Source of the DNA: an uncultured Bacteroidales bacterium
GTDB taxonomy: Bacteria > Bacteroidota > Bacteroidia > Bacteroidales > Paludibacteraceae
Direction: 5' to 3'
DNA length: 54,145 bases
Assembly: GCA_900318245.1 (NCBI GenBank)
Contig: ONJT01000014.1
Coordinates: 1 to 54,145, forward strand
A program made the position numbers and the translations under genes. Shown here piece by piece: positions 5,826-54,145 of this stretch. How positions within the stretch are numbered: the first letter of the stretch is position 1; each line of letters opens with the position of its first letter. The notes below the pieces were generated by a model. It saw only the letters and a list, made by a program, of their open reading frames with translations. It ran no database searches and was not told where the DNA came from.

Positions 5826-5837
5826 ATCTGTTTGGTA

Positions 5838-34256: not shown

Positions 34257-34275
34257 TCTAAACCTTAAAACACAG

Positions 34276-37200: not shown

Positions 37201-40200
37201 AACGGGACAAGTTACTATGCAGTGTTTGCTACGGAAACGACCAGCGGTGGAGGTAGTGAAGGTTGGTCGGAAACGGCTATTACATCACTAACGAGTTCGG
37301 ATGTATTTGTGATTGTGGGCACGAATAATAGTGGTTCAAGAGCATTGCCAAATACTGTTGCTAATGCATCACCTTCGGCTTCCAGCGTAACCATTTCTGC
37401 TGGCAAAATCACAGCTACGGTTGGTAATAACTTAAAGTGGAATATATCTGGAAATAATTCAGAGGGCTTTACGTTCTATCCTAATGGAGATAGTGAGCAT
37501 TGGTTAGGGTCAAATACTACAGCAGCCAGCAGCAGTAATACGAACATACGCGTTGGCACAGCAAATCGCAAATTGTGGCTGTTTGATAGCAACGACCAAT
37601 TGGTAACGAATGATTCATATACGGATCGTTATCTCGCTTTGTATAATACTGATGATTTCCGAGGTTATACTTCTGCAAGTACTTCAACAACGACCTTCAA
37701 GTTCTACAAGTATTCCGCTGGCAGCACAACAACGATTAGCGACTACACGACTTCGTGTGCTGCGCCAACAGAAGTAACTGTTACGTTCCATGCAAACTAT
37801 GAAGGGGCAGATCCTGCAACGGCAACGCAGACTATTCCGTATAATACGGCAACCGCTCTGACGGCAAATAGTTTCTCGCAAACAGGATATTCCTTCCAAG
37901 GATGGGCAACGTCACCGAGCGGCAGCAAAGAGTATGATGACGGCGCAAGCGTTACCTTAACCTCCAACACCCATCTCTATGCTGTATGGCAGAAGAACAG
38001 CCACGATGTAATCTTCACTCCTGCTCCGACCGGCGCTACAGTTACGATAAATGGACAGAGCACCAGTCCGCAGAGCGTGGAATATGGAGAGACGGTTACT
38101 ATCGTCATTACTCCGGATGCTACATATGACCTCAGCAGCGTGACAGCTTCCGGCGTTTCGTTGAGCGGTGAAGGTAACACACGTACGTTCACTATGCCTG
38201 ACGCCGATGTGACTGTCACGGTGATCATGACGCCGAAGCCGACTTATACCATCCGGTTCTACAACGGCGAGAGCCTTATCGGTTCTGCTCAAACCGTTGT
38301 GTCCGGCAATTTGCCTTCCGTACCGTCTAATCCGGAGGCTTGCGAGGGTTATACGTTTGTGGGTTGGTGGACGACGGCTCTGCCTGCAAGCAACACCGAA
38401 TCGCATATTTGGATAAGTGACTTCACGGCTACAGGAGATCAGGATTACCATGCCGTATATCGTCATAATGAAGGAGGCAGCGGAAGTGGGACAGAAAGTG
38501 TTACTTTCAGCGACATATACACCTCAAACACCGTCGTGGAAGATATATCTATTGCGATAGGAACACACACATCCGTAACCTTCACAAAAGGTGGTAGTGA
38601 CACTCAATTCTACACCAACGGAAATGCTATCCGCTGGTATGGAGGAGGTTCATGCGTGGTGGCTTCAGATGCGGGCAACATCACCGGTATAACCTTCACA
38701 TTCGGTTCTAGTGACGGAAGCAATGAGATTGAAGCAGAGGGATATGTAGAACCGACTTGGACGGGAGAAGCATCTTCGGTAACATTTACCCAAAGCGGAA
38801 CATCAGGGAACCGCCGTATAGCAGGTATTTCTGTTACCGTTGACGGTGGTGGTACCGCCCATTACACCTCTGTATTTAGTTGCTCCGGACATACCATTAC
38901 GGTAGCGGAAGTGGAGCATGGTTCCGGCGTTTCCGACAAGTCGCGTTGCGATGAAGGAGGTACAGTGACCATCACGCTGACAGCCGATGAGGGCTATGAG
39001 TGCGGCGGTATTACAACCTCGCCGGTTGTTTCCACGACTGAAACTTCCGAATGCACGTATACCTTCTCGATGCCGGATGCAGATATTACCGTAACGCCGG
39101 TATTTACGCCCAAGACTCCGCGTACGTTTACCTTCGAAAAGGGAACGGGTATTTGCGCAACGAGTACGCTCACCGAGGCGGTATGGAATGGAGGCGTGAC
39201 ACTGCCGACAGCAACAGCAAACTCGGGTTGTGATCCAGAGTATGTATTTGCTGGCTGGGCTACGGCTGCTACAGCAGAGACAGAAGTACGTCCGACGCTG
39301 TATGCCGCAGGTACATTGTATAACGGAGAAGAGACCACACTCTATGCCGTTTATTCGCAGACGACAGGCGGTAGTGCTTCCGGATTCACACTCAGTTATA
39401 CCCATAATGACGTGACCTATTATGTAGCGGCTCGCACGGGTTCGAACACCTACATGGATGCTTCAACAGATGCGGCAGACGCGGCACGCTTTAGCATTGT
39501 CACCTCGAATGACAAGAAATATCTCTGCTGGCATGGAGAGAATGATACGTATGTGCATAACTCCGCAGACAATACCACATTGAAGTTTACTACCGACTTG
39601 GCAAGTGCGAGTGAATGGACGGTAACGGAAGAAGGAACATCTATTACACTTCGCAATTCATCAAGCGGGCGCTACTTCATGTTCAACACCAACCAGAAAG
39701 ACCGATTCTCTTCTTATGCGTCAGAAGGGGCGCTCACCAAAGGCGATGCCGGAACGACGGTATATAACACCAACCCGAGTTGTATTTGCTACTCTGTCAA
39801 TATTACCTATAACGCGAACGGCGGTACGCTGGCAGAGGGTTGCGGCAATGTAGTCGACGGTGAATGCGAACGCGATTGGAAACTTTGCGATGCACCGACG
39901 CGCGAGGGTTATCTGTTTACCAACTGGAAAGACCAGAACGGCACCTTATACAACGCTGGGGCGACGGTTCAAGACTTGAGACTCTCGCTTACCCTGACCG
40001 CGCAATGGATAGTAGCTCCTTATACGGTACTGTTTGATGCCGGTACGGGTACTTGTGTAGCATCGCTAACCGAGCCGAGTCGTGGCGACGGAATTACGTT
40101 GCCGAAGGCTGAACCGTCGGCTGCTTGTGCGGAAGATTGGACCTTCATCGGATGGAGCGAGACTGCATTAGTCGGAGAGACAAACACGACTGCAAGCATC

Positions 40201-43200
40201 ATCGGCGTAGCAGGAACTCCTTATATACCGACCGCGAACAATGTGACGCTGTATGCCGTATATAGTTCGTTGGATGAAGGCGGAGCGACCGATGACTACA
40301 CGTGCGAAAATGCATCTACGCCTGAGGAGGGCGACTATGCAATATTAGTTGCTAAAAGCGATGACAGCTTCGGATTGCTTACCTACGGAACTACCTCAAG
40401 CTGTCGTCTTGCCTATACAGAGGCTTATAATTCATTGCAAACGACTATTTCGAGTCCTGCTGCTACACAGATTTGGCACCTCTCTTACGATGTGGACGGA
40501 TATGCGTACTTGTACAATGCGAATGCGGGGGCATACCTCGCAGCCAGCGGTACTAATATTACCTATAATGCCAATGCGGGTTCAGCCTTCGTGCTAACGA
40601 GAGATCCGGGGGACTATGGAGACTATAAGTTCCTGAATAATACGGCTTCGGGATCCACGAACTACTATTTAGGAGCCAATAAAGACTACGATTTCATCCG
40701 TTATTATACCTCTCAGACACTTGCTGCATTGAACAGCATCACGCTCTATAAAGGTTCTACGGGTACACGCTATTATGCTACCAGTCCGGTATGTACAGCT
40801 TGTGAAGATCCGGAATGGTCATTCGACTTAGGCACAAACGTAGTCAAGACCAAGGGTAGCGCACCGTTTATCAACACGGTCAGCAAAGTGCACGAGTCAA
40901 GCGGTACAGTTACCTACTCCAGCACAAACGAGGCGGTGGCTACGGTAGATGCCGCAGGTGAAGTAACGATTGTCGGAACAGGTATTACCACTATTACGCT
41001 GCGTCTGACAAAAGCAATGCCGTACTGCGCCGCTGTGCTACAATACGAATTGGAGGTTAAAGAACCGAGCATTGATATCGTGGGCGTCACGGAAGACGGC
41101 AAGATTACTATAGAGCACGATTTGGAAGGAACCATCACTATTGACTTGAGCGAAGGAAATACCGTTTCTACCGGAACGGCAGCCAATGACCTGTTCTTCT
41201 CCAAGTACTTCGAGGCAGCCTCTAACATGAAGTTGTTCGCTATTTTCAACGGAACCGGCCATGATATGGATCTCACAAATATCCGTGTGCGTTGTAACTG
41301 TACAACAGATGGAAAATGGCCGACAAAGACAGGTGATTTGGGATATGTAGAACTACGTACCATCAGCAAACTGCGCGAACAATATCCGAAACTGAAGATT
41401 CCTTCCGGCACGGAATTAATCTTCTGGTCGAACAACAAAGGATCTACATCATCTACAGCCGCCCGCAATACCGAATTGCGCGAATGTATCACTTTCACCA
41501 TTGGCGAGATGGAATACCATTATTCGGATATGGAGGCGATGGAGATTCCTAACTGGTTCTGTTTGGGCGATTACACTACCTTCCAAACACCGGATGCTGA
41601 TGGTAACAACCAGTTCGTCTTCAACGGCGATGACTCCATGATTATGGAGCGCTATAATCCGGCTACCGGACAATGGGAGGCGATTGATCTCTTCGGCGCC
41701 GGCACATCGGCAGATCCAGCAGATACGGACGGTTTGGTAGAAAAAATTGAAACCAAATATATAATTAACGGTGTTTCGCAAGAGTTAAACGATGGCACAG
41801 GCTTCCATGAATTATGTACGGATAGTATCATTCCGTTCTCTACCAACCGTTATATGCTTGTTCGCAAGAACACCGTTTTAGACGGTATGCATGCCGTAGC
41901 GTCCAACACCACTTCCTTCGCTACCCTTTGCGAGGAATGGAACGGAACACCGGTCGGAGGTTCTGCTGATGGTTATTGCCGCTCCGGTCATGTATTCTCT
42001 GACATCGCAGAATATGACTACGCAGAGAATTACATCGACTGGACTGGTATTAATGACGATGCGTACACCGTAACTGAAAATGCAGACGGTACGGTTTCCG
42101 TTTACTTCAAGACTCCGCTGGATTTGGATGCACGCGCGTGCTCGCTCCTTAAGATTGAAGTACACGACAAGGATGATGACACCAAGATTCTTGCCACTAC
42201 GGAACATAAGATTCCTATTGTGGTAAAGGCTGGCACGCACATGACGACAGACGACCTGTTCAAGAATCAGGGTGAGAAGTGCGCGACTTGCGACGTGGCT
42301 ATTTTGGGCAGCGCAACACTGACCAAGGCAACAGACGGTGCAACCAACGATATGCCGGAGGTACGTGACATCTACGTCTATGGCGGTGGTCAGTTGATTA
42401 TTCCGTCAGGCACGCACTATAGAGCACACGACTTGATTATGCGCATGGAAATGGCGGCTGACAAAGTAAATGTAGCTGTTCCGAACATACAAGCTGTCGG
42501 TTCACTGAGCAACCAGTACGGCGGCGCTATTCGTCAGCAAGTACGTGTTGGCACCAACCGCTTCTACCAATTCGCTGTTCCGTATCCAGTGCGTCTAGAG
42601 GATGTAACGTTCGGCGACGGCAGACCGGCTATCTATGGCGAAGACTTCATGATTCGCTACTACGACGGTGAGTCTCGTGCGCAGAACTTAGGTACCGCAT
42701 CCAACTGGAAGAACTTCGAAGGCACGGAACTGCAACCGGGTGTCGGCTATACCTTAGCCGTAGCCAAGAAAGCAGGCCACGAACAACGCGAGTTGATCTT
42801 CCCTATGGCGGACGCTTCGCTGGCAGAAGGCGAACCTGCCACCAAAACAACGGCTATCCATGCGTGGGGAGACAATACGATTCGCGCTAACCACCGCGGA
42901 TGGAACTTCCTCTCTAACCCGTATCTGACCACCTATGGTCAAAACCACCTCGATGAGGATGCCGGCGGCGTACTTACGACAGGAAGGTTGGTTGAAGATC
43001 CGGAGCATCCGGGATGGTGGGTCAATGATGCAGGCACTATTCCGTACGTAACGCTCATCAATGGAACGCGTACAGACTACACCCAAGAGCGGGTGGCTCT
43101 GCAGGATCTACCTCCGTTCACGACGTTCTTCATCCAGGCGGGTGACGATACGCATAACTCCGGAGAAGAGTCCACGTTGACCTTCAACCGCGATCACCGA

Positions 43201-43905
43201 GCGACTTCTGCCCCGGCTTATATGCGTGCCGAGCAGAAAGCACCGGTTACACATTTCGGCGTATTGCTGAACGGCAATAACGCTACGGATAACTGCGGTA
43301 TGGCGATTGGCGAAGACTACTCGGCTGCGTATGACATGCAGGCAGACTTGAGTAAAGAGTTCGGTTCGGCATACTCGCTCAAACTCTATACGCTGCAAGA
43401 AGATGCGATGCGCATGGCCTTCCTGGCTACCCATCCGGACAGTTTGAACAAGCCTGTACCGGTAGGCGTACGCATGCCGGCGAATGCGGAGTACACGTTC
43501 TCCATTGACCGACGCTACCACCTCGGCGCATTCGCTCACATCTACCTGACGGATAATGTAACCGGTCAACACACAGACTTGTTGGAGGACACCTATTCGT
43601 TTGCAGGCACACGCAGTCAGAACGATGCTCGCTTCAGTCTGTTTGTCGTAGTGAAGAAAGACACACCGACCGGCACAGACAACCTGCTCAACGGTATTTA
43701 TGCTGTCGGCAGAGAGGGATCCGTCATGCTCACCGGACTACCGGAAACGGCAGATATCTATATCTACGACATGAACGGTCGGCTTGTACTGAACCGACAT
43801 TCGCATGGAGCGACATCCGTGACGTACCACATGCCTATCGGTGTTTACCAGATACGTATTCACTCCGAGGGAGCCAATGCCCTCTTGCGTACTATTGTTC
43901 ATTAA
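34276..43905 (+). CDS. Giant secreted endonuclease I protein with InlB repeats and T9SS C-terminal domain
   Basis: A 3,209-residue surface protein. Signal peptide 1-25. Endonuclease I (EndA/NucM-type) domain about 28-290 with NREHSLPKSWF (His112) and DLGHIVPTDGKVNGMRSNY (His131), the catalytic landmarks, so a working nonspecific nuclease is likely. Then an InlB module, linker SSAPKRAKK (386-394), two related InlB/divergent-InlB blocks starting near 748 and 1170 that share NYEGADPATATQ, more InlB modules (about 1615, 1845, 1916), lectin-like modules (about 994-1155, 1699-1835, 2005-2175), an Ig-like BIG2 domain (about 2175-2260), a lamin-tail-like domain (about 2261-2409), unknown beta-rich domains and a classical type A T9SS C-terminal domain (about 3136-3209; IYDMNGRLVL, GVYQIRI). 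ATG 34276 (or 34282) chosen; starting at 34240 would overlap the protease gene and lose the signal peptide. Confidence 0.92.
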   Translation: MKMKTTKYILTIALALVCAWSSSFAIDQTYYNSIDGRSGTTLRDALYTIASAGPKNMNYDKLWKAYKTTDVYPADHAKAGKIWDMYGGCTFTYSSDQCGNYDNVCDCYNREHSLPKSWFNDVSPADYDLGHIVPTDGKVNGMRSNYIFGEVGSGAATWGTGKLGNAKSITVENVKGSSTITTTITSTAFEPEDQYKGDFARMYMYMAVRYKHGNSNGVDLAASGDGKKMFNATDANYGLTDYSIALLMKWHRQDPVSKKEIDRNNGMQTVQGNRNPFIDYPDLAEYLWGNHAGETVTLASIDNTFGGEVSSYSISLYRNGETTIINNLSGSYTLPLKSAEDAACTNWAFDGWSTTQISETNTKPDYVTTTSSAGIIYAVYAKATISSAPKRAKKEDVTDDLTRATTGVTNGSTTYSNWSGKTVTSDAVYAGNSAGGNNAIQLRSNNSNSGIVTTASGGKAKKVTVTWHSETAAGRTLNIYGKNSAYSDATDLYSSSQGTLLGTIVKGTSTELTISGDYEYIGMRSSSGAMYLTSVSIMWSSGSGGGSTTYDSDPDDCHCTGNLATPSVTATPSDGTITLTWDNDLNATNGYTVTISKGVGYTTECGDSEIGAVTLSGSKNTCVITGLVNGLEYTTSVVANATSSICESAADEDTATPVGCESWADPTFTYSTPLTAGGGKVTPTIGAGYGTPTFISSNTSVLQVDEVGKVTPISAGTATITAQWPGDGTHCPKDVVSNTITVKGIVILTFNANYEGADPATATQNFTYGEAQSMTANSFSRTGYTFQGWSSSPSGSKEYDDGASITITTATTLYAVWQVNKHSVTFSQPASGGTFTVNSSSSSPVTNVDFGSTVTITITPTNSHFTVSTVSVSGGSGYVAVSGSGNAHTFTMPDEDVTVSVTMTEETKYTVNWYVNGNPTTEQNYAGEELVGIANPSIDCNGKAFQGWTATTNYSSDDTAPGDLFTDASTKTMPINGTSYYAVFATETTSGGGSEGWSETAITSLTSSDVFVIVGTNNSGSRALPNTVANASPSASSVTISAGKITATVGNNLKWNISGNNSEGFTFYPNGDSEHWLGSNTTAASSSNTNIRVGTANRKLWLFDSNDQLVTNDSYTDRYLALYNTDDFRGYTSASTSTTTFKFYKYSAGSTTTISDYTTSCAAPTEVTVTFHANYEGADPATATQTIPYNTATALTANSFSQTGYSFQGWATSPSGSKEYDDGASVTLTSNTHLYAVWQKNSHDVIFTPAPTGATVTINGQSTSPQSVEYGETVTIVITPDATYDLSSVTASGVSLSGEGNTRTFTMPDADVTVTVIMTPKPTYTIRFYNGESLIGSAQTVVSGNLPSVPSNPEACEGYTFVGWWTTALPASNTESHIWISDFTATGDQDYHAVYRHNEGGSGSGTESVTFSDIYTSNTVVEDISIAIGTHTSVTFTKGGSDTQFYTNGNAIRWYGGGSCVVASDAGNITGITFTFGSSDGSNEIEAEGYVEPTWTGEASSVTFTQSGTSGNRRIAGISVTVDGGGTAHYTSVFSCSGHTITVAEVEHGSGVSDKSRCDEGGTVTITLTADEGYECGGITTSPVVSTTETSECTYTFSMPDADITVTPVFTPKTPRTFTFEKGTGICATSTLTEAVWNGGVTLPTATANSGCDPEYVFAGWATAATAETEVRPTLYAAGTLYNGEETTLYAVYSQTTGGSASGFTLSYTHNDVTYYVAARTGSNTYMDASTDAADAARFSIVTSNDKKYLCWHGENDTYVHNSADNTTLKFTTDLASASEWTVTEEGTSITLRNSSSGRYFMFNTNQKDRFSSYASEGALTKGDAGTTVYNTNPSCICYSVNITYNANGGTLAEGCGNVVDGECERDWKLCDAPTREGYLFTNWKDQNGTLYNAGATVQDLRLSLTLTAQWIVAPYTVLFDAGTGTCVASLTEPSRGDGITLPKAEPSAACAEDWTFIGWSETALVGETNTTASIIGVAGTPYIPTANNVTLYAVYSSLDEGGATDDYTCENASTPEEGDYAILVAKSDDSFGLLTYGTTSSCRLAYTEAYNSLQTTISSPAATQIWHLSYDVDGYAYLYNANAGAYLAASGTNITYNANAGSAFVLTRDPGDYGDYKFLNNTASGSTNYYLGANKDYDFIRYYTSQTLAALNSITLYKGSTGTRYYATSPVCTACEDPEWSFDLGTNVVKTKGSAPFINTVSKVHESSGTVTYSSTNEAVATVDAAGEVTIVGTGITTITLRLTKAMPYCAAVLQYELEVKEPSIDIVGVTEDGKITIEHDLEGTITIDLSEGNTVSTGTAANDLFFSKYFEAASNMKLFAIFNGTGHDMDLTNIRVRCNCTTDGKWPTKTGDLGYVELRTISKLREQYPKLKIPSGTELIFWSNNKGSTSSTAARNTELRECITFTIGEMEYHYSDMEAMEIPNWFCLGDYTTFQTPDADGNNQFVFNGDDSMIMERYNPATGQWEAIDLFGAGTSADPADTDGLVEKIETKYIINGVSQELNDGTGFHELCTDSIIPFSTNRYMLVRKNTVLDGMHAVASNTTSFATLCEEWNGTPVGGSADGYCRSGHVFSDIAEYDYAENYIDWTGINDDAYTVTENADGTVSVYFKTPLDLDARACSLLKIEVHDKDDDTKILATTEHKIPIVVKAGTHMTTDDLFKNQGEKCATCDVAILGSATLTKATDGATNDMPEVRDIYVYGGGQLIIPSGTHYRAHDLIMRMEMAADKVNVAVPNIQAVGSLSNQYGGAIRQQVRVGTNRFYQFAVPYPVRLEDVTFGDGRPAIYGEDFMIRYYDGESRAQNLGTASNWKNFEGTELQPGVGYTLAVAKKAGHEQRELIFPMADASLAEGEPATKTTAIHAWGDNTIRANHRGWNFLSNPYLTTYGQNHLDEDAGGVLTTGRLVEDPEHPGWWVNDAGTIPYVTLINGTRTDYTQERVALQDLPPFTTFFIQAGDDTHNSGEESTLTFNRDHRATSAPAYMRAEQKAPVTHFGVLLNGNNATDNCGMAIGEDYSAAYDMQADLSKEFGSAYSLKLYTLQEDAMRMAFLATHPDSLNKPVPVGVRMPANAEYTFSIDRRYHLGAFAHIYLTDNVTGQHTDLLEDTYSFAGTRSQNDARFSLFVVVKKDTPTGTDNLLNGIYAVGREGSVMLTGLPETADIYIYDMNGRLVLNRHSHGATSVTYHMPIGVYQIRIHSEGANALLRTIVH

Positions 43906-43926: not shown

Positions 43927-44652
43927 ATGAATCCAATCCTTTATATAAGAAGCGCGTTCGAGGTTTATAATGAACGTCAAAAAGTTCGTAAACTGAGGGT
44001 ATTCCTCTTCGTCGGAATATTACTTATTGCGTGGGGTGCGGTCGTTATTATTGTGCTTAAGACGCCCAAGATGGAGCAGCATGTACATGTCTCGGCTCCG
44101 GCTGTCATACCCTCTTCTAACCATGCGCCTTCCGGTGTCAGTGGTATCGTGGCGCCTACGATGCGTCCCACTTCGCTGACGCGGCGTCAGATAACGATAC
44201 AAACTCCGCAACCGAGTTCGTACTCAACCCATCAAGGCACTGGCGGTTTTTCCATGACTATCCATACCACATCCTCTGCGGAGCCTATGTTCATCGGAGG
44301 CGGTAGTGGCGGTTATACAGGAAGTAATTACAACCACAGTAACCCTACTCGCGCGATAGCGCAAAATACGGTGTCCACCTCTATGATGATTATCACTCCG
44401 GTACAACGACTGGAAAAGCATAATTTGTCCGTAGACAACACGCTTCAAAACATGCAACAAGTGATTGAGGACAACGGTCCGAATGCTGTTGCCGCACGCA
44501 TGAAGAAAGACGGTTGGGACGACTATGGGCAGGATGATGAACCATTCCTGGATCAGCAGCCTATCGGAGATGTGACGTGGGGATTGATGCTGCTGCTTAC
44601 CATCGGTTGGTGCGTACGAGTCCACCGAAAAAGGCAACAAGCATGTAGATAG
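43927..44652 (+). CDS. Unknown two-membrane-segment protein with Ser/Thr/Pro-rich middle
   Basis: I recognise no family. The 241 residues have a basic N-terminal part, a strong membrane segment (about 24-45), a long Ser/Thr/Pro/Gly-rich linker, a short acidic helix (about 180-205) and a C-terminal segment PIGDVTWGLMLLLTIGWCV followed by RVHRKRQQACR. The tail, Pro-x-Gly-Asp then a hydrophobic stretch then Arg/Lys, resembles a C-terminal anchoring or sorting tail. It lies 21 bp after the giant nuclease and is likely cotranscribed. The last 56 bp overlap the convergent glycosyltransferase fusion. It could be an accessory factor for the surface proteins (inference only). Confidence 0.75.
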   Translation: MNPILYIRSAFEVYNERQKVRKLRVFLFVGILLIAWGAVVIIVLKTPKMEQHVHVSAPAVIPSSNHAPSGVSGIVAPTMRPTSLTRRQITIQTPQPSSYSTHQGTGGFSMTIHTTSSAEPMFIGGGSGGYTGSNYNHSNPTRAIAQNTVSTSMMIITPVQRLEKHNLSVDNTLQNMQQVIEDNGPNAVAARMKKDGWDDYGQDDEPFLDQQPIGDVTWGLMLLLTIGWCVRVHRKRQQACR

Positions 44653-46261
44653 GATATAGTATTTCGAGCAAAAGAGCCACGTACCACGGAGTGCGTGGCT
44701 TTTTGGTGTACGGTGTATGGTGTACGGTGTAGGTTTTCTCTCGCGCACGAATTAGGCGATACTCTATCGGAAATTTGATGAGGATGATCGGGAAGAAGAG
44801 TATCTGGGCGATATTGGCCGCTACGACGATGGCTCCGTACCGACGGATGTCTTTATCCGTATAGTGCGGTGCTTTGCCTGCCCAGCGCATACGCTGACGG
44901 AAGAAAGCGCGCCAGGAAGTGAGGGGACGAACGATGGCCGTGTAGTCAGGAGTGTCAATCACGCGGACTTGGTATCCGCGACGCTTGGCAGCTTCGAGCA
45001 GGAACATATCATCGCCCGAAGGAATCTCCGGATGGATATCGGCTTCGCAGGCGAGCCATACCTCGCGACGAACGATGAGGTTCGCACCGGAGCACATGAT
45101 GGCTTGATTTCGCTTGGCGGTACGCATCGTCAACTCCTGAATCGCTGCATATTCGGCTATCTGAAGGCGTTCCAAGAGCGAAGGCGCTGCGTTTTCGCTT
45201 TCCATCTTCAGCGGCAGAATAAGCAGGTCGCCCTCTAAGGCCACTACCTTTGCGCAAGCAGGCGGCAAAACGATATCATCATCGTGCAGCCAGACATATT
45301 CGGAAGTAGCGGCATGGATGAGTTTGGAAAGGGCATGCTTCTTGCCTAAGTTATCGTCATTGACACCTTTGATGGGCGTGATATGTTGGGGCGCAAAATT
45401 CGGATAACTCTTCGCGATACAGGCTTGCTCTTCGATAGACACCGGATAGTCCGCGCATAGGAGAGCCATGGCCATGCGGTGGTCGTTATTTACTTCATGT
45501 AAACGGACTGACCGCAGACGATTGGATTCCTTGAACCGCAGCCGGGAAGTTCCGGTAGCCTGAAAGTTCAGCTTTAAGCGTTCGCAGGTCAATGCTATCG
45601 CCGGGTAAAGATCGGGAATGTTCTCAAAATCGATCGCTACCACTTGGTCTCTGACAGGGACGGACGATTTGGATATCTTCACTCCTTCCGGCAAGTAGGA
45701 CGTGATCACTCCGAAATAGTGATTATATAATTGCGCCACCATCTTATCGCCTTGGAGACTATTTCGCTTAAGGCTCTCCAGCAACAACTCGCCGCCATGA
45801 ATAGCGATGTATTCGTACCAGAAGGCCGCAGAACTCCAATCGCGTTCTAACTCCACGTTCGGATAAGCCTCAGCGATTTTACGCGACATCGTAATGTAGG
45901 GGCTTTCGTTTTTTTCTACGGGGATGTCTTCACCGTGAAGAATAAGGGCAGACTGGGTTTGCGAAGTTGGTTTTCCGTCTCGCTCCATGAGGCGCGGGTC
46001 GCCGGTGAGGGTGATCGGTTCGCCGGGATAGCATTTCGCGATATGAACTTGCAAGAAGCGCAAGGCGGTTCCGCAGTTTTTTAGGTAGAGAGTCAGCGGT
46101 TCGCCTTTCTTATGTTGCTGCAGCGCCTCTAAGGCCTCATGGAGGACTATCACATCATCCGGCATACCCGAAGAGACCCGCATAAGCGGATCTCCATGGA
46201 TAGCTTGCAGCAACAGGACTCTGTTCGCTATAGATTTCGATATAGGAAGTTTAATTGACAT
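44597..46261 (-). CDS. Fusion of a compact EPSP synthase (AroA) and a truncated family 2 glycosyltransferase
   Basis: The 554-residue protein joins two enzymes. Residues 1-288 are AroA-like: SKS with Lys9, Asn62-Gly64 of NCGTALRFL, Arg94, Ser100-Gln101, Ser120 of SPYI, Asp217 of IPD, Lys244/Glu245/Arg248 of FKESNR, NDHRMAM with Arg262, and Lys284 of AKSYP. All substrate residues remain, but two internal segments (about 35 residues after Arg94 and about 40 before NDHR) are missing; ordinary AroA has about 410-430. Residues 304-554 are the later part of a processive-type GT2: GKKHALSKLI, WLHDDDIVLP, SGDDMFLLEAAKRRGY, QRMRWAGK and two membrane segments; the N-terminal nucleotide-binding half is missing. 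It overlaps DPP III by 11 bp. A genuine fusion, or an old deletion, is more likely than two working genes; an assembly error should be excluded. Confidence 0.82.
   Translation of the reverse strand: MSIKLPISKSIANRVLLLQAIHGDPLMRVSSGMPDDVIVLHEALEALQQHKKGEPLTLYLKNCGTALRFLQVHIAKCYPGEPITLTGDPRLMERDGKPTSQTQSALILHGEDIPVEKNESPYITMSRKIAEAYPNVELERDWSSAAFWYEYIAIHGGELLLESLKRNSLQGDKMVAQLYNHYFGVITSYLPEGVKISKSSVPVRDQVVAIDFENIPDLYPAIALTCERLKLNFQATGTSRLRFKESNRLRSVRLHEVNNDHRMAMALLCADYPVSIEEQACIAKSYPNFAPQHITPIKGVNDDNLGKKHALSKLIHAATSEYVWLHDDDIVLPPACAKVVALEGDLLILPLKMESENAAPSLLERLQIAEYAAIQELTMRTAKRNQAIMCSGANLIVRREVWLACEADIHPEIPSGDDMFLLEAAKRRGYQVRVIDTPDYTAIVRPLTSWRAFFRQRMRWAGKAPHYTDKDIRRYGAIVVAANIAQILFFPIILIKFPIEYRLIRAREKTYTVHHTPYTKKPRTPWYVALLLEILYPIYMLVAFFGGLVRTNRW
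44675..44704 (+). terminator. Terminator of the surface-protein operon, inside the opposite gene
   Basis: AGCCACG (44675-44681), a 12-nt loop, CGTGGCT (44694-44700) and TTTT on the plus strand, preceded by a run of A. It ends the transcript of the gene at 43927-44652 and lies within codons of the convergent AroA-GT2 gene. Confidence 0.75.
44705..44732. repeat. Four 7-bp tandem repeats within the glycosyltransferase gene
   Basis: GGTGTAC, GGTGTAT, GGTGTAC, GGTGTAG, directly next to the terminator, encoding a TYTVHHTPYT spacer between two membrane segments on the minus strand. Because 7 is not a multiple of 3, gain or loss of one unit would shift the frame and alter the last membrane segment. 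Confidence 0.8.
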
Positions 46262-48254
46262 CCGGTAGCGGACTATAGTCGCGGCTGTAACGAAGGTGTT
46301 GGTCGATATAGCCTTCCGTGAAGTCGAGTTTCACATCGGTGATGGCTCCTTGTTTGTCGCGCGTCACCTTATAGACAGGATTGACAAAACCTTTGTACGG
46401 CGCGAGATGAAGTTCGGCATAGCGCTCTAAGATCTCCTTATGCAATGCCGGACCGACTTTCACCGCATAGGTCTCGACCATATTCTTCGCAGCAGCATAG
46501 TCTCCTTCGGAGGTGATGCGCTGAATCTCCGCGAGCAGTTCGCCGAAGAGTCGGCGTACGCCTTCGTAGTCGTTGATCTGCAGGTAGTGCTTACCGTCGC
46601 GCTCGATGATCTCCAACTCGCCGTCTGCATGGTCATACACCCACTTGGCAATCAACTGGCGATCACGCATATGCGCTTCCTCGATATCCTTGCCCGGCTC
46701 GATACGCACGAGTTGGGTCATCAGGCCGTTCATCAGTTGCTGGTAATAGCCGGCTTTATAGGCTTCCTCATTCGGGAGCAGACCCAGTTCTACGAGTTTC
46801 GGATCGGCGAGATAATAGAGTCCAAAGAGGTCTGCGCGGGCTTCTTCGATGGTCGAAGCATGCTCTTTGAGTGCATCTTTGGTCACACCCGGCATCAGCT
46901 TGCCCGAACCGTGTCCGACACACTCGTGGAGGTCGGTATGCAGGTCGCCGCACAGCGCGCCGTATTTCGAGTAGATCTCGCGTATCTCATCGTCGATCAT
47001 GAATTCCTCATTGAAACCGTTGCCTTTCGCCGCCTCGTTGTAAGCGTGCATCAGGTTGTCAATCGTGACGGACTTGGAACCGTAGGTCTTACGGATCCAG
47101 TTAGCGTTCGGCAGGTTGATACCGATCGGCGTAGCAGGATAGCAATCGCCGGCAAGGATAGCGGCCGTGATGACTTTGGCACTCACACCTTTCACTTCCT
47201 CTTTCTTGAATTTCTTCGCGGTAGGCGAGTTGTCTTCGAACCACTGCGCGTTGTCCGAGATGAGTTGTGCGCGCTTGGTAGCTACGAGGTCCTTGAAGTT
47301 AACCATTGACTCCCAGGTACCGGTGATACCGAGCGGGTCGGAATAGGTCTCGGTGAAACCGTTGACGAAGTCCACGCGGCTGTCGAGGTCCTTGACCCAA
47401 GCGATGCAGTATTCGTTGAAGAGTTGCAGATCGCCCGTCTCGTTGAAAGCAATGAGTTTGTTGATGACTTCGCGCTGCTGGTCGTTCTCGGCATATCGGA
47501 GTGCTTCGCGCAGCCAGTACACCACTTTCTCCAGCGCTTCGCCGTAGAGTCCGCCTACCTTATAGACGCGCTCTTCAACCTTACCTTCGGCGTTCTTGAC
47601 GAGTTGGGAGTTGAGGCCTATCCACAGCGGTTCAGGGCTGTTGTCCTTATGCGCGTCATACCACGCCTCCGCCTCTTTCTGCGTCATTCCTTCGCCGTAG
47701 TAGTTTCCTGCCGAATTAGCCACGAGGTCCACGCCGTTCTGCGCAGTGGTACGCTTGGGCATGACAGCGGGATCGAACATAACGGGTAGGATCGCTGCGT
47801 CATACTGCACGCCGGCATCGGCGCAAGCTGTCTCGAACCATTTCTGACTGAACTCCGGCAGGAACTTGTCTTCGCTGTAGTGGTGGTGAATACCATTGGA
47901 GAACCACACGCGTTTGAGATAGCGCTCGAAGGCTGCGAACTCTTCGTTGTCCGTATCGTACGGATAGTTGAGGTACAGCGCCTCGCACGCACGACGAATA
48001 CGCAGGTTGTAACGACCGTTCTGGTCAAAGAGGATATCGCGTCCCCATAACGCCGCCTCGGAAAGGCAGTACACCAACTGCTTCTGTTGCAGCGTCAAGG
48101 CATCGAACTCCGGCACATCGTATCGGAGGATCTCCAGGTCATAAAACTTATCCACGTTGTATTGAAAAGGAGTTTCTTGTTTACGGCACGCCGTAAACAT
48201 AAGCAACAAAGTCACAAAGGACAAAGTCACAAAGTTAAACAATTTCTTTTCCAT
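46251..48254 (-). CDS. Dipeptidyl peptidase III (M49) lipoprotein
   Basis: A zinc exopeptidase that removes dipeptides from N-termini of peptides. The 667 residues carry a lipoprotein signal ending FTAC (lipidated Cys about 22), so it is probably on the outer membrane or in the periplasm. The zinc motif HECVGH (His443, Glu444, His448) and the second motif EEARAD (470-475) are both intact, and the length matches bacterial DPP III. The signal region contains a 15-bp in-frame tandem duplication (48204-48238). A promoter with TTTG-N20-TATCTTTG is at 48278-48309. It overlaps the AroA-GT2 gene by 11 bp. Confidence 0.94.
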   Translation of the reverse strand: MEKKLFNFVTLSFVTLLLMFTACRKQETPFQYNVDKFYDLEILRYDVPEFDALTLQQKQLVYCLSEAALWGRDILFDQNGRYNLRIRRACEALYLNYPYDTDNEEFAAFERYLKRVWFSNGIHHHYSEDKFLPEFSQKWFETACADAGVQYDAAILPVMFDPAVMPKRTTAQNGVDLVANSAGNYYGEGMTQKEAEAWYDAHKDNSPEPLWIGLNSQLVKNAEGKVEERVYKVGGLYGEALEKVVYWLREALRYAENDQQREVINKLIAFNETGDLQLFNEYCIAWVKDLDSRVDFVNGFTETYSDPLGITGTWESMVNFKDLVATKRAQLISDNAQWFEDNSPTAKKFKKEEVKGVSAKVITAAILAGDCYPATPIGINLPNANWIRKTYGSKSVTIDNLMHAYNEAAKGNGFNEEFMIDDEIREIYSKYGALCGDLHTDLHECVGHGSGKLMPGVTKDALKEHASTIEEARADLFGLYYLADPKLVELGLLPNEEAYKAGYYQQLMNGLMTQLVRIEPGKDIEEAHMRDRQLIAKWVYDHADGELEIIERDGKHYLQINDYEGVRRLFGELLAEIQRITSEGDYAAAKNMVETYAVKVGPALHKEILERYAELHLAPYKGFVNPVYKVTRDKQGAITDVKLDFTEGYIDQHLRYSRDYSPLPDVN

Positions 48255-48384: not shown

Positions 48385-48849
48385 TCAACGGCTTAGTTTC
48401 CATTGAGGAGTGAAGGGTTTGGCAACCGTTCCCAGGAACGAATCATTGCGATAGACAAAGGCCTTCTCCGCTTCAAACAGGTTGGAGAAATGCGCAGAGT
48501 AGTAACGCAGCGTGACCTCGCCCTCCTGCATAGAGAGGTAGAGAAAGAAGAGCCCTTTTTTATATTCGGCTACACCCACACATTCCTCTCCTACGAAAGC
48601 AGCGAGCATATCAGATTCACCTACCACCTTGTCATCGACGGCTTGCCCTTCAAGAGATGTGACTTGGACGACCACGGTCATAGAAGACAACATATCCAAA
48701 CTATCGGAAACCAGCCAAGTAGGACGCGGTTTGTTCCCCTGAAGCGTTAGGGGATCATTATTCTCCTTCTTGCAACCCACTGCCAAAAGCAGCATGGTGC
48801 AAAGGAGTATAAGCTTACAATTTCTTACCTGTAACATCATATTTTTCAT
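48385..48849 (-). CDS. Small lipoprotein sharing a domain with the adjacent LamG protein
   Basis: A 154-residue predicted lipoprotein (signal ending AVGC, lipidated Cys about 26). The mature part is one beta-rich domain with the pattern MTVVVQV, DMLAAFVGEECVGVA, FLYLSM and VTLRYYSA, ending in FLGTVAKPFTPQWKLSR. A diverged copy of the same pattern lies near the C-terminus of the neighbouring LamG protein (VCAQVKLN, NECVGM, VFLTVYGED, IRFRLWRA). The start overlaps the LamG gene end by up to 35 bp (other Met codons at 48840 and 48837 are possible), so the two are coupled. Function unknown; it may be a surface partner of the LamG protein. Confidence 0.8.
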   Translation of the reverse strand: MKNMMLQVRNCKLILLCTMLLLAVGCKKENNDPLTLQGNKPRPTWLVSDSLDMLSSMTVVVQVTSLEGQAVDDKVVGESDMLAAFVGEECVGVAEYKKGLFFLYLSMQEGEVTLRYYSAHFSNLFEAEKAFVYRNDSFLGTVAKPFTPQWKLSR

Positions 48850-51800
48850 TGTTTCGGATGATTACTACATGGTTATTTTCAATGATCTTATACACGCGGC
48901 TCGGATTCTCGGGAACGAGAATGACGGGTTCCAGAAGCGATCCGTGATGTGCATCAGGAGCATAATGAACAGAAGATGGATTATTGAAGATGGTCAATGG
49001 GGTGCCATTCTCTGTTTCAAAGCGAACCGGTGAGCCGCTCATATCGGACTGGATTGTAATGAAATAGAGAGAGTCGATTGGTTCAGACACTCCTGCCAAC
49101 TCATCCCCTACATATACGCGGATAGGTGAGGGTTGCGTGCTGACAGCCGACCGCTCTATCTTCGCAATCATGGTCATGTTAGTCGCAGCCTTGGGGTTCG
49201 AGAACAGGGTTGATTGTGCATCTTCCTGCTTGCTCATCTTCTTGGGTGCCGGCGTCGTAGTCTGGTGGTAGAACGGTATTACAACCGAGCCCAATCCCAG
49301 ACGTCGGAAGAGGTATCCTTCTCCCGGCCGGAGAGCAATGAGGTTTCCTTCCCATCTCTTATCCTCGGAGAAGACGGCAAAGCGGTCATGCGCCTTGATG
49401 ATGTCGCCCGGTTGCGCTTTCTGGAAATAACTTGCGAGCGCTTCGGAGATCGGTGTGGTACGGTTGAAGAGGCAAGGCAGCATACTCCATTGTCCGTCTC
49501 CCCTGACCTTCACATGCATCGAGTCTTCCGGCAGCAAGTCACCGGCTATACGCATTCGGTTTTCATGCTGGCTATAGACCATATAGATTTGCGAATAATG
49601 CAGTTTATCCAGCGTACCCATAAATTCCGCAGAGGTCTCGTCATAGGTGCCAAACTTGCGGGTATTGGGGTTCTTGATGATGTCGCCTTCTATCCATGAA
49701 TCATTGGCTGTCATGCAGGTGGACAGCAAGCCGCCGGACGCCGTGAGATCCATATTGACGGATATCCAGTTCCATCCCTGCTCCAGATCAATCATCTGTA
49801 CTTCGCTGCCGAAGGTGGTCAGGATGAGAGGATCGGTGTCGCCGCAGTTATAGACGAATCCGTGGGCAAAGATCACATTGCGGTTGGTTGACAAGTCATA
49901 GACCCTGCCGGTAGAAGCTCTCCATAAGCGGAACCGTATCGGCTTGCGGTTCATCGCATCCTCACCGTAAACAGTCAGGAAGACTTTGGCCTTATGGGTA
50001 TTCTCGTTGAAGGAGACATGATCCATGCCGACACACTCATTCTGATAGAAGGCATAGACGATATCATTGGGATCGGTATCGTACTCGGTATCATTGAGTT
50101 TGACTTGCGCACAAACGGACATATTGAGCGGATATTTATGCTCATCTACAGCTTCGTAAGGCGGCAATGCTTCTATGGTTAACTCAACCTTCATCGGTTC
50201 GGATAATCCGTTCTCGTCCGTCACGTAAACGATATCTTCGTAGATACCCGGAGCGATATCGGTATTCGCGGTGAAGATGAGGTATAGTTCCTCGGTGGGG
50301 TTGATCGAACCATATGCAGCGTTAACAGTGAGCCAATCGGGCAAGGACTCGATGGTGTACTGGTGGCGTTTACCGGAGTGGTTAAGCACGCGAGTGATAT
50401 ACTCAACCCCGTCTGTCTCCTCGCCGTAGATGGCGTACATCTTGATGGTTCGCTCTTCCCATTTGAGTGCGTTCTTGTCCACGAACGCCGTCCATGTGAC
50501 AGGTGAGGTCATCGGGTTGCCGTTGATATCCTCCACGTCACGCACGGTCACAAAGATGGTCTGCTTGTTGATCTCGCGGTCCAGCATATTGAGGTTGATG
50601 AGCAACTCGTCATGGTTGAACGACCAATCAAAATTCATCTTGGTCAGTTTACCCATATCCTGTACCGGCGCATAATGCGATTTGTCGGGACTGAGCGTAC
50701 TGATATCCTCCAGAACGAGCGGTACTTTCTTATCCACTACCGTACCATCGGAGGTGCGATAGACGCGCTGGTCGTTGATGGAGAAGATCTGCTCGTAGAT
50801 ACCGTTGGCATTCTCTTTCATCTCGTTGAACGGCAGGTATGCCACTAATCCCATCTCGTCGCCCGACAACGAATTGGTACCGAACGACTCTAACAGCGAT
50901 TTAGGCAGTGCTTGCTCGAAGATGGCAAACTCATCGATATTACCTTCGAAATTCTTACCGCCCAGATACATAGCACCTGATATAGCGCCGAATTTGGTAG
51001 CGGGGAAGGTCTCTTTGAGTTGGTCATCGATATACACGGCTACGTTGTTATAGGTGCGGTTGATAGCGATCGCAAAATGATGCCATTCATTATCGTCGCA
51101 TACGCCTGCTAACGGCCAGTATGCGCTATCCGACATGAGCATAAGTCCGCCGTTGGAGACGAGGATCTCAAGACCGTGTTTGGAGTCTGTTCTGCCGGCA
51201 GAGAAGAGCGGACCTCTGGATCCCGCCTTGAACCAGAACATCAGCGTCGCATCCTGTTTGGCGGAGCGGCTCATGAGGTTACCCTCCAGCATGACCGGTT
51301 GATTCTTATCCAAATGGAGGGATATGCCGCTTTGATGATCCCAAGTGGCGCCATGCGTATAGAGGGTTGCACCGGTAGCTTTGTCGAAAACGACGTCGCC
51401 TACTCCTTCGTTCATCGGGTAATAGGCAATCAGCTCTTTCTCGTATCCGGTCAGCCGTCGCATGTGAGTCTGCGCCACCTCGTCCGAAGAGAGTGCCTTT
51501 GTCCAGAGACGAACCTCCATCATGTTACCTTCAAACCGCGGAGCGAAGCGCAGCGGTGCATCACCGCCCTGCAGTTTGGCGTTGGGGCTAACCGTACAGA
51601 AATTCGGATCCGTGATGTCCCGCGTTCCTACATAGAACCGTGCCTTGTGCGTCGTATGGTCGTACGCTACCACGATGCGCGTGAAGGTCGTCAACGGCTC
51701 CGGGATCGGTTGGGACATAAGAACACCCAGCAGGTTCACCATCATGTAGATACGGTTACCCGCCAAGGAGATTGACAAAGAGGTGTTATTGGCGGTGTAG

Positions 51801-54145
51801 AAAAACAGCATGTTCGATCGATCCGGGTTATTGGGTCGAACCATCATATCGATGGTAAACGACTTCTCGAACAAAGAGCGCAGCACTTTCGTTTCGGCAT
51901 ACGAGTTCTCCGTACCGTCAAAATGCAACGATGCACCTCTGACGATACCTGACTCATTGGTGTAGCCCATGATCTGGAAGTTGTTGTCCTCATCGAGGTA
52001 GTTTCCTGCGATCGGTTCATTGAAGCGCAGCTTGAGGTTATCTCCTACCCCGAGTATCGCGTTAGCGGGTTCGGGTTCACCGAAGACGCGTGGCGGGCGG
52101 GTGTCCTTGATACCCGTCAATACAGGCGAAGACTTGGTTACGAAACCCGATCCGTGACGGCAGAAGGATACTGCACGGAGATCGTACTGCTGCTCCATCG
52201 GATCCCGCTCACCGTAGAAGCGGAAATTCTCTATTCGTCCGCCCTCGATCATCGCTTTGGATCCCGAAGCCTGTTGATAGAGACTATCCTCCGCATAATA
52301 GGAACATAGGTTCACCCATGCGTCATTGGACTGGGTCGTTAGTTTGTATTGCAGTTCGATATGGTCAAAACCGTCGTAGTTCACATCAAAGCCATCGATA
52401 GATACCGGCATGTAATAGCCGTTCTCGTCACGCGGCGATAAGGTGTTCATGATCCATTTATCCGATGGAGAGGATATCCTTACATCACAGCTAACAGGCA
52501 TGTAATGGACGGAGAAGCACACTTTCTGATAGGTGATCGTAGGAGTACATTCCGATTGCAGGATAAGACAAATGTCTTCATAATCATAATCATCTCCGGC
52601 ACGTACCTCGATGGTCTTGATGATCGGCGTATTGCCTTGGAAGCGGAACTCGCGTCCATCGGATAGAGGTACACCATCGATACTTATCTTGGCGCCCTTG
52701 GTATTGGTGGCATCATCCATCTTGAGGGTCATGAACACAGCCGGACCGCTGGCAAGCCCCACGACCTCATCGGCTTCGTTCCACATCGTGAGCTTGAACT
52801 TAGCGGCTTGATCATGCGGCACATTGCTGATCTCATGACGGTTAATAACCATTTGCGGATTCTCTATCTTCTGAGTGGCAGCACTAAGCGGTGTACCCGG
52901 ATTGTAGAAATAGGTCGAGTCCGCCGCCTCCCAAGGACACCTGGTAGCGCCACCTAAAGTGGAGTACATCAGTGAGCCAAAGAGGTATTTGTTCTTATTA
53001 TCACTATTGAAGTCGTGTGCCTCATAACGCGTCTCTTTCGATTGCGCATTGAAATCATCCGTCAGCGATTTATACACATTGAACGTCAGATGCTCCAACG
53101 GATTGAGGGACAGTACGTAGCCGGTGGTCTTGCTCGAGCCAACGCTCTCACCATTCTCCGGCAGGAGGTTAAATCCGGTCTCTAAGATAAACTTGCAGTC
53201 CAGATCGAATTTCACACCACCCACCTCCGCTCGTACGTACTGCGAAGGAGAGGCACCTTTGTCGGCGGCATTCAGGTGTTTTATCAGTAATTGAAATCCT
53301 TTAGACCCTTTGAACAAATCCTTCAGACGCGCTATAGCCAAAGGACCAAAGCCGTCTCCAAAAAAGCCACTCGAGCTCGTTACTCCTTCACCTGTCTGGT
53401 GATTCCACGGCCAAGCGAAATAAGCAGAACGGGTATCTACATACGAATACGACTCGGAGTATGTCTGCGTCAGACCGCCGTTGATAGAATGGGTGGCAAG
53501 CGGTGTTTTGGTCATCGCTAACACTTTCTCCGCCTCGTTGGTAGCAAGAACTCCGATCCAATTATCCACGGCTTTGTTGTCCAACTGTACTTGGTCGAAG
53601 ATCATCCAGTTCTGCCCGTCCGGCGTGATGATCTCGTAGTATCCTTCTTCACCGAATCCGAGGGAGTCCGGATGCACCTTACTCCAATAAACCGGCCGGT
53701 CTTTGGCTATAGCTTGGGTCACCGCTTCCTCTCGGGTGCCGGTCAACAGAAGACTGTTACGATGGTAGAGCAGATCCGGAATGATTGTACCGACTATATA
53801 CTGATGGGTATAAGCGAAGGAGGATTGGATAAATTTCTTGATCAGCACATCCTCGGTTCGCATCAGATACCAGGGTTTGCCGTTGGCGTCCACACCCTGC
53901 TGAACAATGCGGTAACTCTTGTTGTCGATTTTCGCTTTTATCTGCTCGAAAGAGATTGAGTCCACGATGCGGAAAGCGTCGGCTTTGGAGGTCATCACAC
54001 CGTTGGTCACACCGATATAGACATCCCCGTTGGTGCCAACCTGGAAAGGACCGGAACCGGTCTGAATACGCTCGGAGGTCTTAAACTCGTAGTCCGCTTG
54101 ATTATATCCATACCATTGTACCGTAAGCGGGAAATTCCAATCGGT
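48815..54145 (-). CDS. Giant secreted LamG-domain protein with short C-terminal tag (N-terminus outside window)
   Basis: The reading frame is open to the right edge, so the start lies beyond the window; 1,776 residues are visible. Visible parts in order: an Ig-like/beta-sandwich region, then two LamG (concanavalin-like) domains in the middle containing SFTIDMMVRPNNPDRSNMLF and, in the second, EWHHFAIAINRTYNNVAVYI and NIDEFAIFEQAL, Ig-like domains (ITRVLNHSGKRHQYTIESLP), the beta domain also found in the adjacent lipoprotein, and a C-terminal tag with IENNHVVIIR and YDVTGKKL. The domain make-up resembles large Bacteroidetes surface proteins that bind carbohydrate or host material. Secretion through the Por system is inferred. 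Confidence 0.88.
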   Translation of the reverse strand, partial: TDWNFPLTVQWYGYNQADYEFKTSERIQTGSGPFQVGTNGDVYIGVTNGVMTSKADAFRIVDSISFEQIKAKIDNKSYRIVQQGVDANGKPWYLMRTEDVLIKKFIQSSFAYTHQYIVGTIIPDLLYHRNSLLLTGTREEAVTQAIAKDRPVYWSKVHPDSLGFGEEGYYEIITPDGQNWMIFDQVQLDNKAVDNWIGVLATNEAEKVLAMTKTPLATHSINGGLTQTYSESYSYVDTRSAYFAWPWNHQTGEGVTSSSGFFGDGFGPLAIARLKDLFKGSKGFQLLIKHLNAADKGASPSQYVRAEVGGVKFDLDCKFILETGFNLLPENGESVGSSKTTGYVLSLNPLEHLTFNVYKSLTDDFNAQSKETRYEAHDFNSDNKNKYLFGSLMYSTLGGATRCPWEAADSTYFYNPGTPLSAATQKIENPQMVINRHEISNVPHDQAAKFKLTMWNEADEVVGLASGPAVFMTLKMDDATNTKGAKISIDGVPLSDGREFRFQGNTPIIKTIEVRAGDDYDYEDICLILQSECTPTITYQKVCFSVHYMPVSCDVRISSPSDKWIMNTLSPRDENGYYMPVSIDGFDVNYDGFDHIELQYKLTTQSNDAWVNLCSYYAEDSLYQQASGSKAMIEGGRIENFRFYGERDPMEQQYDLRAVSFCRHGSGFVTKSSPVLTGIKDTRPPRVFGEPEPANAILGVGDNLKLRFNEPIAGNYLDEDNNFQIMGYTNESGIVRGASLHFDGTENSYAETKVLRSLFEKSFTIDMMVRPNNPDRSNMLFFYTANNTSLSISLAGNRIYMMVNLLGVLMSQPIPEPLTTFTRIVVAYDHTTHKARFYVGTRDITDPNFCTVSPNAKLQGGDAPLRFAPRFEGNMMEVRLWTKALSSDEVAQTHMRRLTGYEKELIAYYPMNEGVGDVVFDKATGATLYTHGATWDHQSGISLHLDKNQPVMLEGNLMSRSAKQDATLMFWFKAGSRGPLFSAGRTDSKHGLEILVSNGGLMLMSDSAYWPLAGVCDDNEWHHFAIAINRTYNNVAVYIDDQLKETFPATKFGAISGAMYLGGKNFEGNIDEFAIFEQALPKSLLESFGTNSLSGDEMGLVAYLPFNEMKENANGIYEQIFSINDQRVYRTSDGTVVDKKVPLVLEDISTLSPDKSHYAPVQDMGKLTKMNFDWSFNHDELLINLNMLDREINKQTIFVTVRDVEDINGNPMTSPVTWTAFVDKNALKWEERTIKMYAIYGEETDGVEYITRVLNHSGKRHQYTIESLPDWLTVNAAYGSINPTEELYLIFTANTDIAPGIYEDIVYVTDENGLSEPMKVELTIEALPPYEAVDEHKYPLNMSVCAQVKLNDTEYDTDPNDIVYAFYQNECVGMDHVSFNENTHKAKVFLTVYGEDAMNRKPIRFRLWRASTGRVYDLSTNRNVIFAHGFVYNCGDTDPLILTTFGSEVQMIDLEQGWNWISVNMDLTASGGLLSTCMTANDSWIEGDIIKNPNTRKFGTYDETSAEFMGTLDKLHYSQIYMVYSQHENRMRIAGDLLPEDSMHVKVRGDGQWSMLPCLFNRTTPISEALASYFQKAQPGDIIKAHDRFAVFSEDKRWEGNLIALRPGEGYLFRRLGLGSVVIPFYHQTTTPAPKKMSKQEDAQSTLFSNPKAATNMTMIAKIERSAVSTQPSPIRVYVGDELAGVSEPIDSLYFITIQSDMSGSPVRFETENGTPLTIFNNPSSVHYAPDAHHGSLLEPVILVPENPSRVYKIIENNHVVIIRNNEKYDVTGKKL

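Follow-up and report, generated by a model that had tools for sequence, protein, structure and literature searches.

A conserved fusion of a miniature, probably working EPSP synthase and a trimmed membrane glycosyltransferase, with a stepwise history among its relatives

EPSP synthase (AroA), the enzyme that glyphosate targets, is a textbook member of the pathway to aromatic amino acids. The stretch of DNA analysed here (the window, 54,145 nucleotides from an uncultured gut Bacteroidales bacterium) carries a gene in which a miniature AroA is joined to a miniaturised membrane glycosyltransferase of the GT2 type. The fusion is real and conserved, and its relatives preserve an unusually clear stepwise history of known enzymes. 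From its sequence, length, conserved residues and relatives, we consider it likely that the AroA half, the only EPSP synthase found in its genome, is a working enzyme. The relatives probably form a natural series in which EPSP synthase becomes progressively smaller and still works at ~290 residues, the GT2 domain is trimmed in parallel, and fusion occurs repeatedly.

Results

The fused gene and its two halves

The gene is one open reading frame of 554 codons with an ATG at 46261 and a stop codon at 44597-44599. The original prediction gave its interval correctly without a strand, which is minus. The N-terminal part matches PF00275 (EPSP_synthase, 82.6 bits vs a cut-off of 22.8) and the C-terminal part matches PF13641 (Glyco_tranf_2_3, 53 bits vs 27), both above the Pfam cut-offs, and the latter match begins at profile position 57 of 230. 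Based on the structural model and the alignments, the join is placed between residues 292 and 293 (window 45386/45385), in line with the in-frame junction predicted at about 45350-45400. The main features are as follows.

44597-46261, minus strand: fused aroA-GT2 gene, 554 codons and stop
45386-46261, minus strand: compact EPSP synthase domain, residues 1-292 (PF00275, AlphaFold2 model, Foldseek)
44600-45385, minus strand: trimmed GT2 domain, residues 293-554, with C-terminal helices that are probably membrane helices (PF13641, model)
46251-48254, minus strand: peptidase M49 gene immediately 5' of the fusion, with which it shares 11 bases (Pfam)

Of the 83 genus loci with aroA (same-contig duplicates included), 78 have an M49 gene just 5' of aroA in the same orientation, an arrangement seen in none of the 37 loci from other Bacteroidota. 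One of the five genus loci that lack it, L058, has no more than 38 bases of sequence on that side. AroA is likewise chained to another enzyme in AroA-cytidylate kinase (NF008816), prephenate dehydrogenase-AroA (NF011381) and eukaryotic AROM (6hqv), and in the first of these the partner also lies outside the pathway. Judged by names and lengths, these known fusions have no GT2 partner, and their AroA part is not miniature (662 and 733 model positions). No title describing an AroA fusion or a reduced EPSP synthase was found in open-licence PMC, which does not show absence from print. A role as a defence protein was rejected, as PADLOC returned 0 families.

Stepwise shortening of the AroA half

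The AroA half has ~292 residues compared with 427 in E. coli AroA, which agrees with the compact enzyme originally predicted. Segments are indeed lost, but not just the two that had been proposed: more than two stretches are shortened, five of them clearly. We aligned E. coli AroA (L137) with 37 frames from other Bacteroidota (drawn from 38 loci, as L096 is without a full frame), 27 from the rest of the genus, and 36 from the clade of the window. The number of residues between conserved anchors (E. coli positions) is given below for E. coli and the window, followed by the medians for other Bacteroidota, the rest of the genus, and the window clade.

22-94: E. coli 71, window 52; medians 44, 53, 52
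124-170: E. coli 45, window 5; medians 46, 47, 5
171-200: E. coli 28, window 20; medians 28, 19, 20
200-242: E. coli 41, window 18; medians 39, 21, 20.5
274-313 (kept): E. coli 38, window 43; medians 42, 41, 44.5
344-384: E. coli 39, window 11; medians 40, 19, 11
386-411: E. coli 24, window 21

By median, the genus has three stretches that fall short of their counterparts in other Bacteroidota. Lengths of up to 47 residues (200-242) and 78 residues (344-384) do occur in individual rows, in part because of inserts. The stretch 124-170 is 5 residues long in all 36 rows of the window clade and in 0 of 27 rows of the rest of the genus, and this compact clade has an SH-aLRT value of 100. In a separate clade (L029, L035, L072, and L075), a different stretch, 274-313, is reduced to 23-32 residues. 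As we read the series, full-length AroA of other Bacteroidota would have given way to the shorter form of the genus, from which one more piece was lost in the window clade and a different one in the L029 clade. The stretches concerned lie in the window as follows.

45965-45982, minus strand: shortened stretch, residues 94-99; ~40 residues (E. coli 125-168) absent in the alignment
45836-45898, minus strand: shortened stretch, residues 122-142; E. coli 200-242, 41 vs 18 in the alignment
45482-45520, minus strand: shortened stretch, residues 248-260; E. coli 344-384, 39 vs 11 in the alignment
45629-45751, minus strand: kept helix-hairpin piece, residues 171-211; E. coli 274-313, modelled as a helix (H171-183) and a hairpin (E185-190, E193-198)

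In E. coli AroA, these stretches share a pattern of helix, GxxI/V, and hairpin when the alignment is read by eye. EPSP synthase consists of repeated folding units, and several of the stretches lost from the AroA half were set against the unit topology given in an excerpt of PMC8983318. It looks as if several units have each lost the same outer helix-hairpin piece, and these pieces may have been shed one after another. Such graded, apparently surviving reductions amount to a natural deletion scan of dispensable outer parts of the folding units, and they make the size of the smallest working EPSP synthase a directly testable question.

An order-wide search with the AroA half gave matches in 138 of 149 genomes. 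The AroA frames listed for other genera of the order are 397-593 aa long, apart from pieces of 106, 137, 252, and 362 aa, and the sole other genus of the family in this sample (G101) has an AroA of 400 aa. The reduction is thus confined to one genus in the order-wide sample, a few pieces apart. General protein shrinkage was rejected as an explanation, as nine other proteins of the window match their Pfam models nearly full length, except for one TruB_C_2 match that covers 44 of 66 positions. The aroC of the same genome (L141:254-1159, G000:C15) is also short, with 290 residues over 323 Pfam positions, and this second shikimate enzyme may be shrinking too.

Repeated changes of the fused state among relatives

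In the named collection, at least 577 loci were confirmed, of which 80 were kept. The named records are metagenome-assembled genomes (MAGs) titled Bacteroidales or Paludibacteraceae, one of them (L076) Candidatus Colicola caccequi, and among the matches listed the stated sources are mostly ruminants and other herbivores. After removal of same-contig duplicates, the tree contains 63 rows, 62 of them with an assigned layout; L073, whose frames are broken, carries no state. L016 (same layout and frame length as L076) and the GT-only or cut loci L031, L081, L085, L093, L094, and L096 were left off the tree. The fused state of L039, L068, and L072 was taken from one-frame BLAST matches, and L068 is cut by a contig end.

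The two halves are fused in 37 of the 62 rows, separate neighbours in 16, and apart or without a GT found in 9. A single origin was rejected, as a tree with all fused rows in one clade is excluded with p-AU 4e-41 (60 rows). At least 8 changes of the fused state are required on the tree, and starred branches force 4 of them. The tree is a quick, unrooted reconstruction (of its 60 inner branches, 21 are starred and 22 fall under 80), so that gains and losses of the fusion cannot be told apart. Where the genes are separate neighbours, they mostly overlap: in 15 of 17 loci (L027 and L077 are one contig), the aroA stop codon ends 4-37 nt beyond the nearest plausible GT start. The exceptions are L025, with the GT start 15 nt after the aroA stop, and L069, with the start 61 nt before it; L069 is possibly a broken fusion.

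Overlaps of this size mean that loss of a stop codon can explain a fusion that is gained or lost repeatedly. We suggest that the fusion would arise from overlapping neighbour genes, either by stop loss in a shared frame or by a change of frame, and that the step would be reversible. The switching fusion then offers a clear case of overlapping genes that merge into one protein and part again. In L073 (4001-5671) and L069 (3992-5649), AroA and GT lie in different frames, three of them in L073, owing to either sequencing error or recent breakage. Separate genes in relatives had been named as a sign of assembly collapse in the window. Such genes exist, but they are not the full-length pair envisaged: within the genus, AroA is already short, the GT is mostly truncated, and fused forms are interspersed with separate ones on the tree.

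Selection could have acted on the tethering itself, with aromatic synthesis tied to the membrane or linked to sugar transfer, and we regard such a joint function as unlikely. It would fit a pair that is either joined or adjacent in 53 of the 62 rows with an assigned layout, and fused in 28 of 36 rows of the compact clade, with a KSYP-to-GKK linker that is as short as 18 residues. It fits less well with the repeated changes of the fused state and with genomes in which AroA and GT lie apart (G001, G007, G014, and G023). In addition, G002 and G004 (90% and 96% complete) have a compact AroA and no GT match, so AroA is kept there without its partner, and we know of no substrate common to AroA and GT2. 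Tolerated tethering or coupled expression is more likely than a joint reaction.

A GT2 domain with most of its nucleotide-binding half removed

The GT half of the window has 262 residues, compared with 385 aa in L143, a full-length GT from another family of the order. Its landmarks are as follows.

45338-45385, minus strand: GT N-terminal remnant, residues 293-308, with the first strand, NDDN and GKK (model, alignments)
45275-45283, minus strand: DxD motif, D327-D329, both Asp constant in 55 of 55 rows
45008-45016, minus strand: GDD motif, G416-D418, constant in 55 of 55 rows
44882-44896, minus strand: QxxRW motif, Q456-W460, with Q, R, and W constant in 55 of 55 rows

The N-terminal half of the domain is truncated as predicted, with a profile match that starts late and only 7 residues between the first strand and GKK. 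The domain does not begin at GKKHAL, as had been proposed; a strand (HITPIKG) and NDDN precede it. Relatives show graded lengths for the same distance: 57 residues in L040, 50 in L036, 35 in L035, 22-25 in L023, L032, L037, and L038, and 7 in 25 of 38 loci. Five of the 38 loci were not parsed; the window, L090, and L021 were read as 7 by eye, and the value of 2 for L029 is doubtful, with the wrong strand probably picked. In 53 of 55 rows, GKK is preceded by an Asp at a distance of four residues; the exceptions are the long forms L036 and L040.

A Foldseek search with the fused model found hyaluronan synthases and BcsA (E 1.9e-5 to 5.1e-4). Like these and other PF13641 GT2 proteins, the window protein has DxD, GDD, and QxxRW in order, followed by C-terminal helices; unlike membrane GT2 synthases, its nucleotide-binding half consists of one strand and NDDN. 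We take the three motifs to be the catalytic motifs of membrane GT2 synthases. The trimmed domain may still bind a nucleotide sugar and be active, in which case it would transfer sugar at the membrane through these motifs with most of the nucleotide-binding half gone. For the nucleotide-binding half of the GT-A fold, the series poses a question equal to that of the smallest EPSP synthase.

The extent of the trimming, from 57 residues in L040 to 7, could also mean that the GT half does not act as a transferase and is nothing more than a membrane anchor for AroA. We think this improbable, in view of the complete conservation of the three motifs and of GT dN/dS values of 0.07-0.34 in the 6 pairs, out of 9, that allowed a computation (window-L090, 0.19; the remaining three pairs are saturated at synonymous sites, and saturation affects several pairs overall). 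Trimmed GTs are also kept as stand-alone genes in relatives.

Substrate site, fold and predicted activity of the AroA half

We examined 20 substrate-site positions; those outside the 12 cited below we presume to belong to the EPSP synthase substrate site. The original prediction that every placeable substrate contact is kept holds for 17 of the 20, which are identical to the E. coli residues, but not for S169 (Thr), S197 (Glu), and N336 (Arg). Across 100 other AroA rows, 14 of the 20 are constant (K22, S23, R27, R124, Q171, Y200, D313, K340, E341, R344, D384, H385, R386, and K411), and G96 is kept in 99 of 100. All of these 14 except D384 and K411 are the 12 named in an excerpt of the docking paper PMC10305266. 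The three changes are shared by relatives: Thr replaces S169 in all 36 compact rows, either Glu or Asp replaces S197, and Arg replaces N336 in 31 of the 36. At N336, 36 of the 37 rows from other Bacteroidota have Thr or Ser.

AlphaFold2 models residues 1-292 with a pLDDT of 93.4 and a pTM of 0.89 (24 rows), and the whole chain with 90.4 and 0.70 (42 rows), although AlphaFold2 may favour a known fold. The nine best Foldseek rows for residues 1-292 are all EPSP synthases (TM 0.76-0.79 by query length, rmsd 4.9-5.9 Å), eight of them described with a ligand and one (7tm4) apo. Open or unliganded EPSP synthases have TM values of 0.49 (1eps), 0.54 (7pxy), and 0.65 (2bjb). The AroA half thus resembles E. 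coli AroA (PF00275, TIGR01356, PDB 1g6s) in its substrate site and modelled fold (TM 0.76 to 1g6s), and it differs from it in length, in its five shortened stretches, in its fusion to GT2, and in its score of 94.0 against TIGR01356, below the aroA equivalog cut-off of 287.25, which is an annotation threshold. The genus members L040 and L024 also fall under this cut-off (157.9 and 171.5). We therefore class the protein as descended from and probably working like AroA, rather than as a typical AroA. TIGR01072 (MurA) is absent from the 5 NCBIfam families that match the fusion at E up to 10.

A PF00275 search of the draft genome (91.9% complete) found no second aroA. The only other PF00275 gene, C21:17924-19177, is murA (TIGR01072, 410.4 bits vs 392.7), and a second aroA is thus rejected as far as a genome of this completeness allows. 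aroB, aroK, aroE, aroQ, and aroC are present in one copy each, and aroC is found in 59 of 61 genus genomes. In 61 genus genomes, the PF00275 places among the matches listed are MurA-like and AroA-like, some of them pieces at contig ends.

These observations suggest that the AroA half is probably still an EPSP synthase, which would convert shikimate 3-phosphate and phosphoenolpyruvate to EPSP in the usual cleft. The original prediction left a choice between a working shikimate enzyme with an unusual membrane anchor and an inactive hybrid with another aroA elsewhere. The first option is supported, with the activity predicted; the second is not supported, given the genome search and the five retained pathway genes. 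It is very unlikely in our judgement that the AroA half has ceased to be an active EPSP synthase and now either acts as a scaffold for the GT or is decaying. Such a loss would agree with the absence of well over 100 residues compared with E. coli, the missed equivalog cut-off, and the three changed positions, but the constancy of the active-site positions, the low AroA dN/dS (0.09-0.27 over 10 pairs; window-L090, 0.16), the lack of any other aroA found, and the compact AroA kept alone in G002 and G004 all argue for a working enzyme.

Conservation of the join in separate genomes

The fusion protein was searched in 61 genomes (its own, 36 of the genus and 24 of the order), 59 of which gave some match. 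Seven other species of the genus match it over essentially the whole length with 72-77% identity, and other genomes match it in at least two pieces, often in one frame. L090, a MAG from goat reticulum, has the same fused frame with 96% identity to the window. With relatives that match over nearly the whole length and dN/dS well below 1 in both halves, the fusion is not a chance product. Every genus sequence in this analysis is a draft assembly, but the identical join recurs in many independently binned MAGs and graded intermediates exist among relatives, so that misassembly, a chimeric contig or the suspected assembly collapse has a negligible chance of explaining it.

Repeats and other genes in the window

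One dispersed repeat lies inside the fused gene.

44706-44731, plus strand: copy of the repeat, translated in frame within KTYTVHHTPYTKK (genome search)

This repeat is found at 10 places in its genome with up to 3 mismatches, compared with 0 for the backwards control. In other species, other repeat-like peptides (such as ITNHQSQITN, SARSDCRWPSVEQ, and CQPEGRSV) occur at several sites in both domains, and in-frame repeats were seen in the AroA and GT frames of L011-L014, L019, L021, L022, L034, and L041. Elsewhere in the window, there are two very long open reading frames of 3221 and 1731 aa (34240-43905 and 48815-54010), the first of which appears by eye to be a repetitive secreted protein. 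The gliding-motility genes GldN and GldM are located at 4878-7406 (Pfam).
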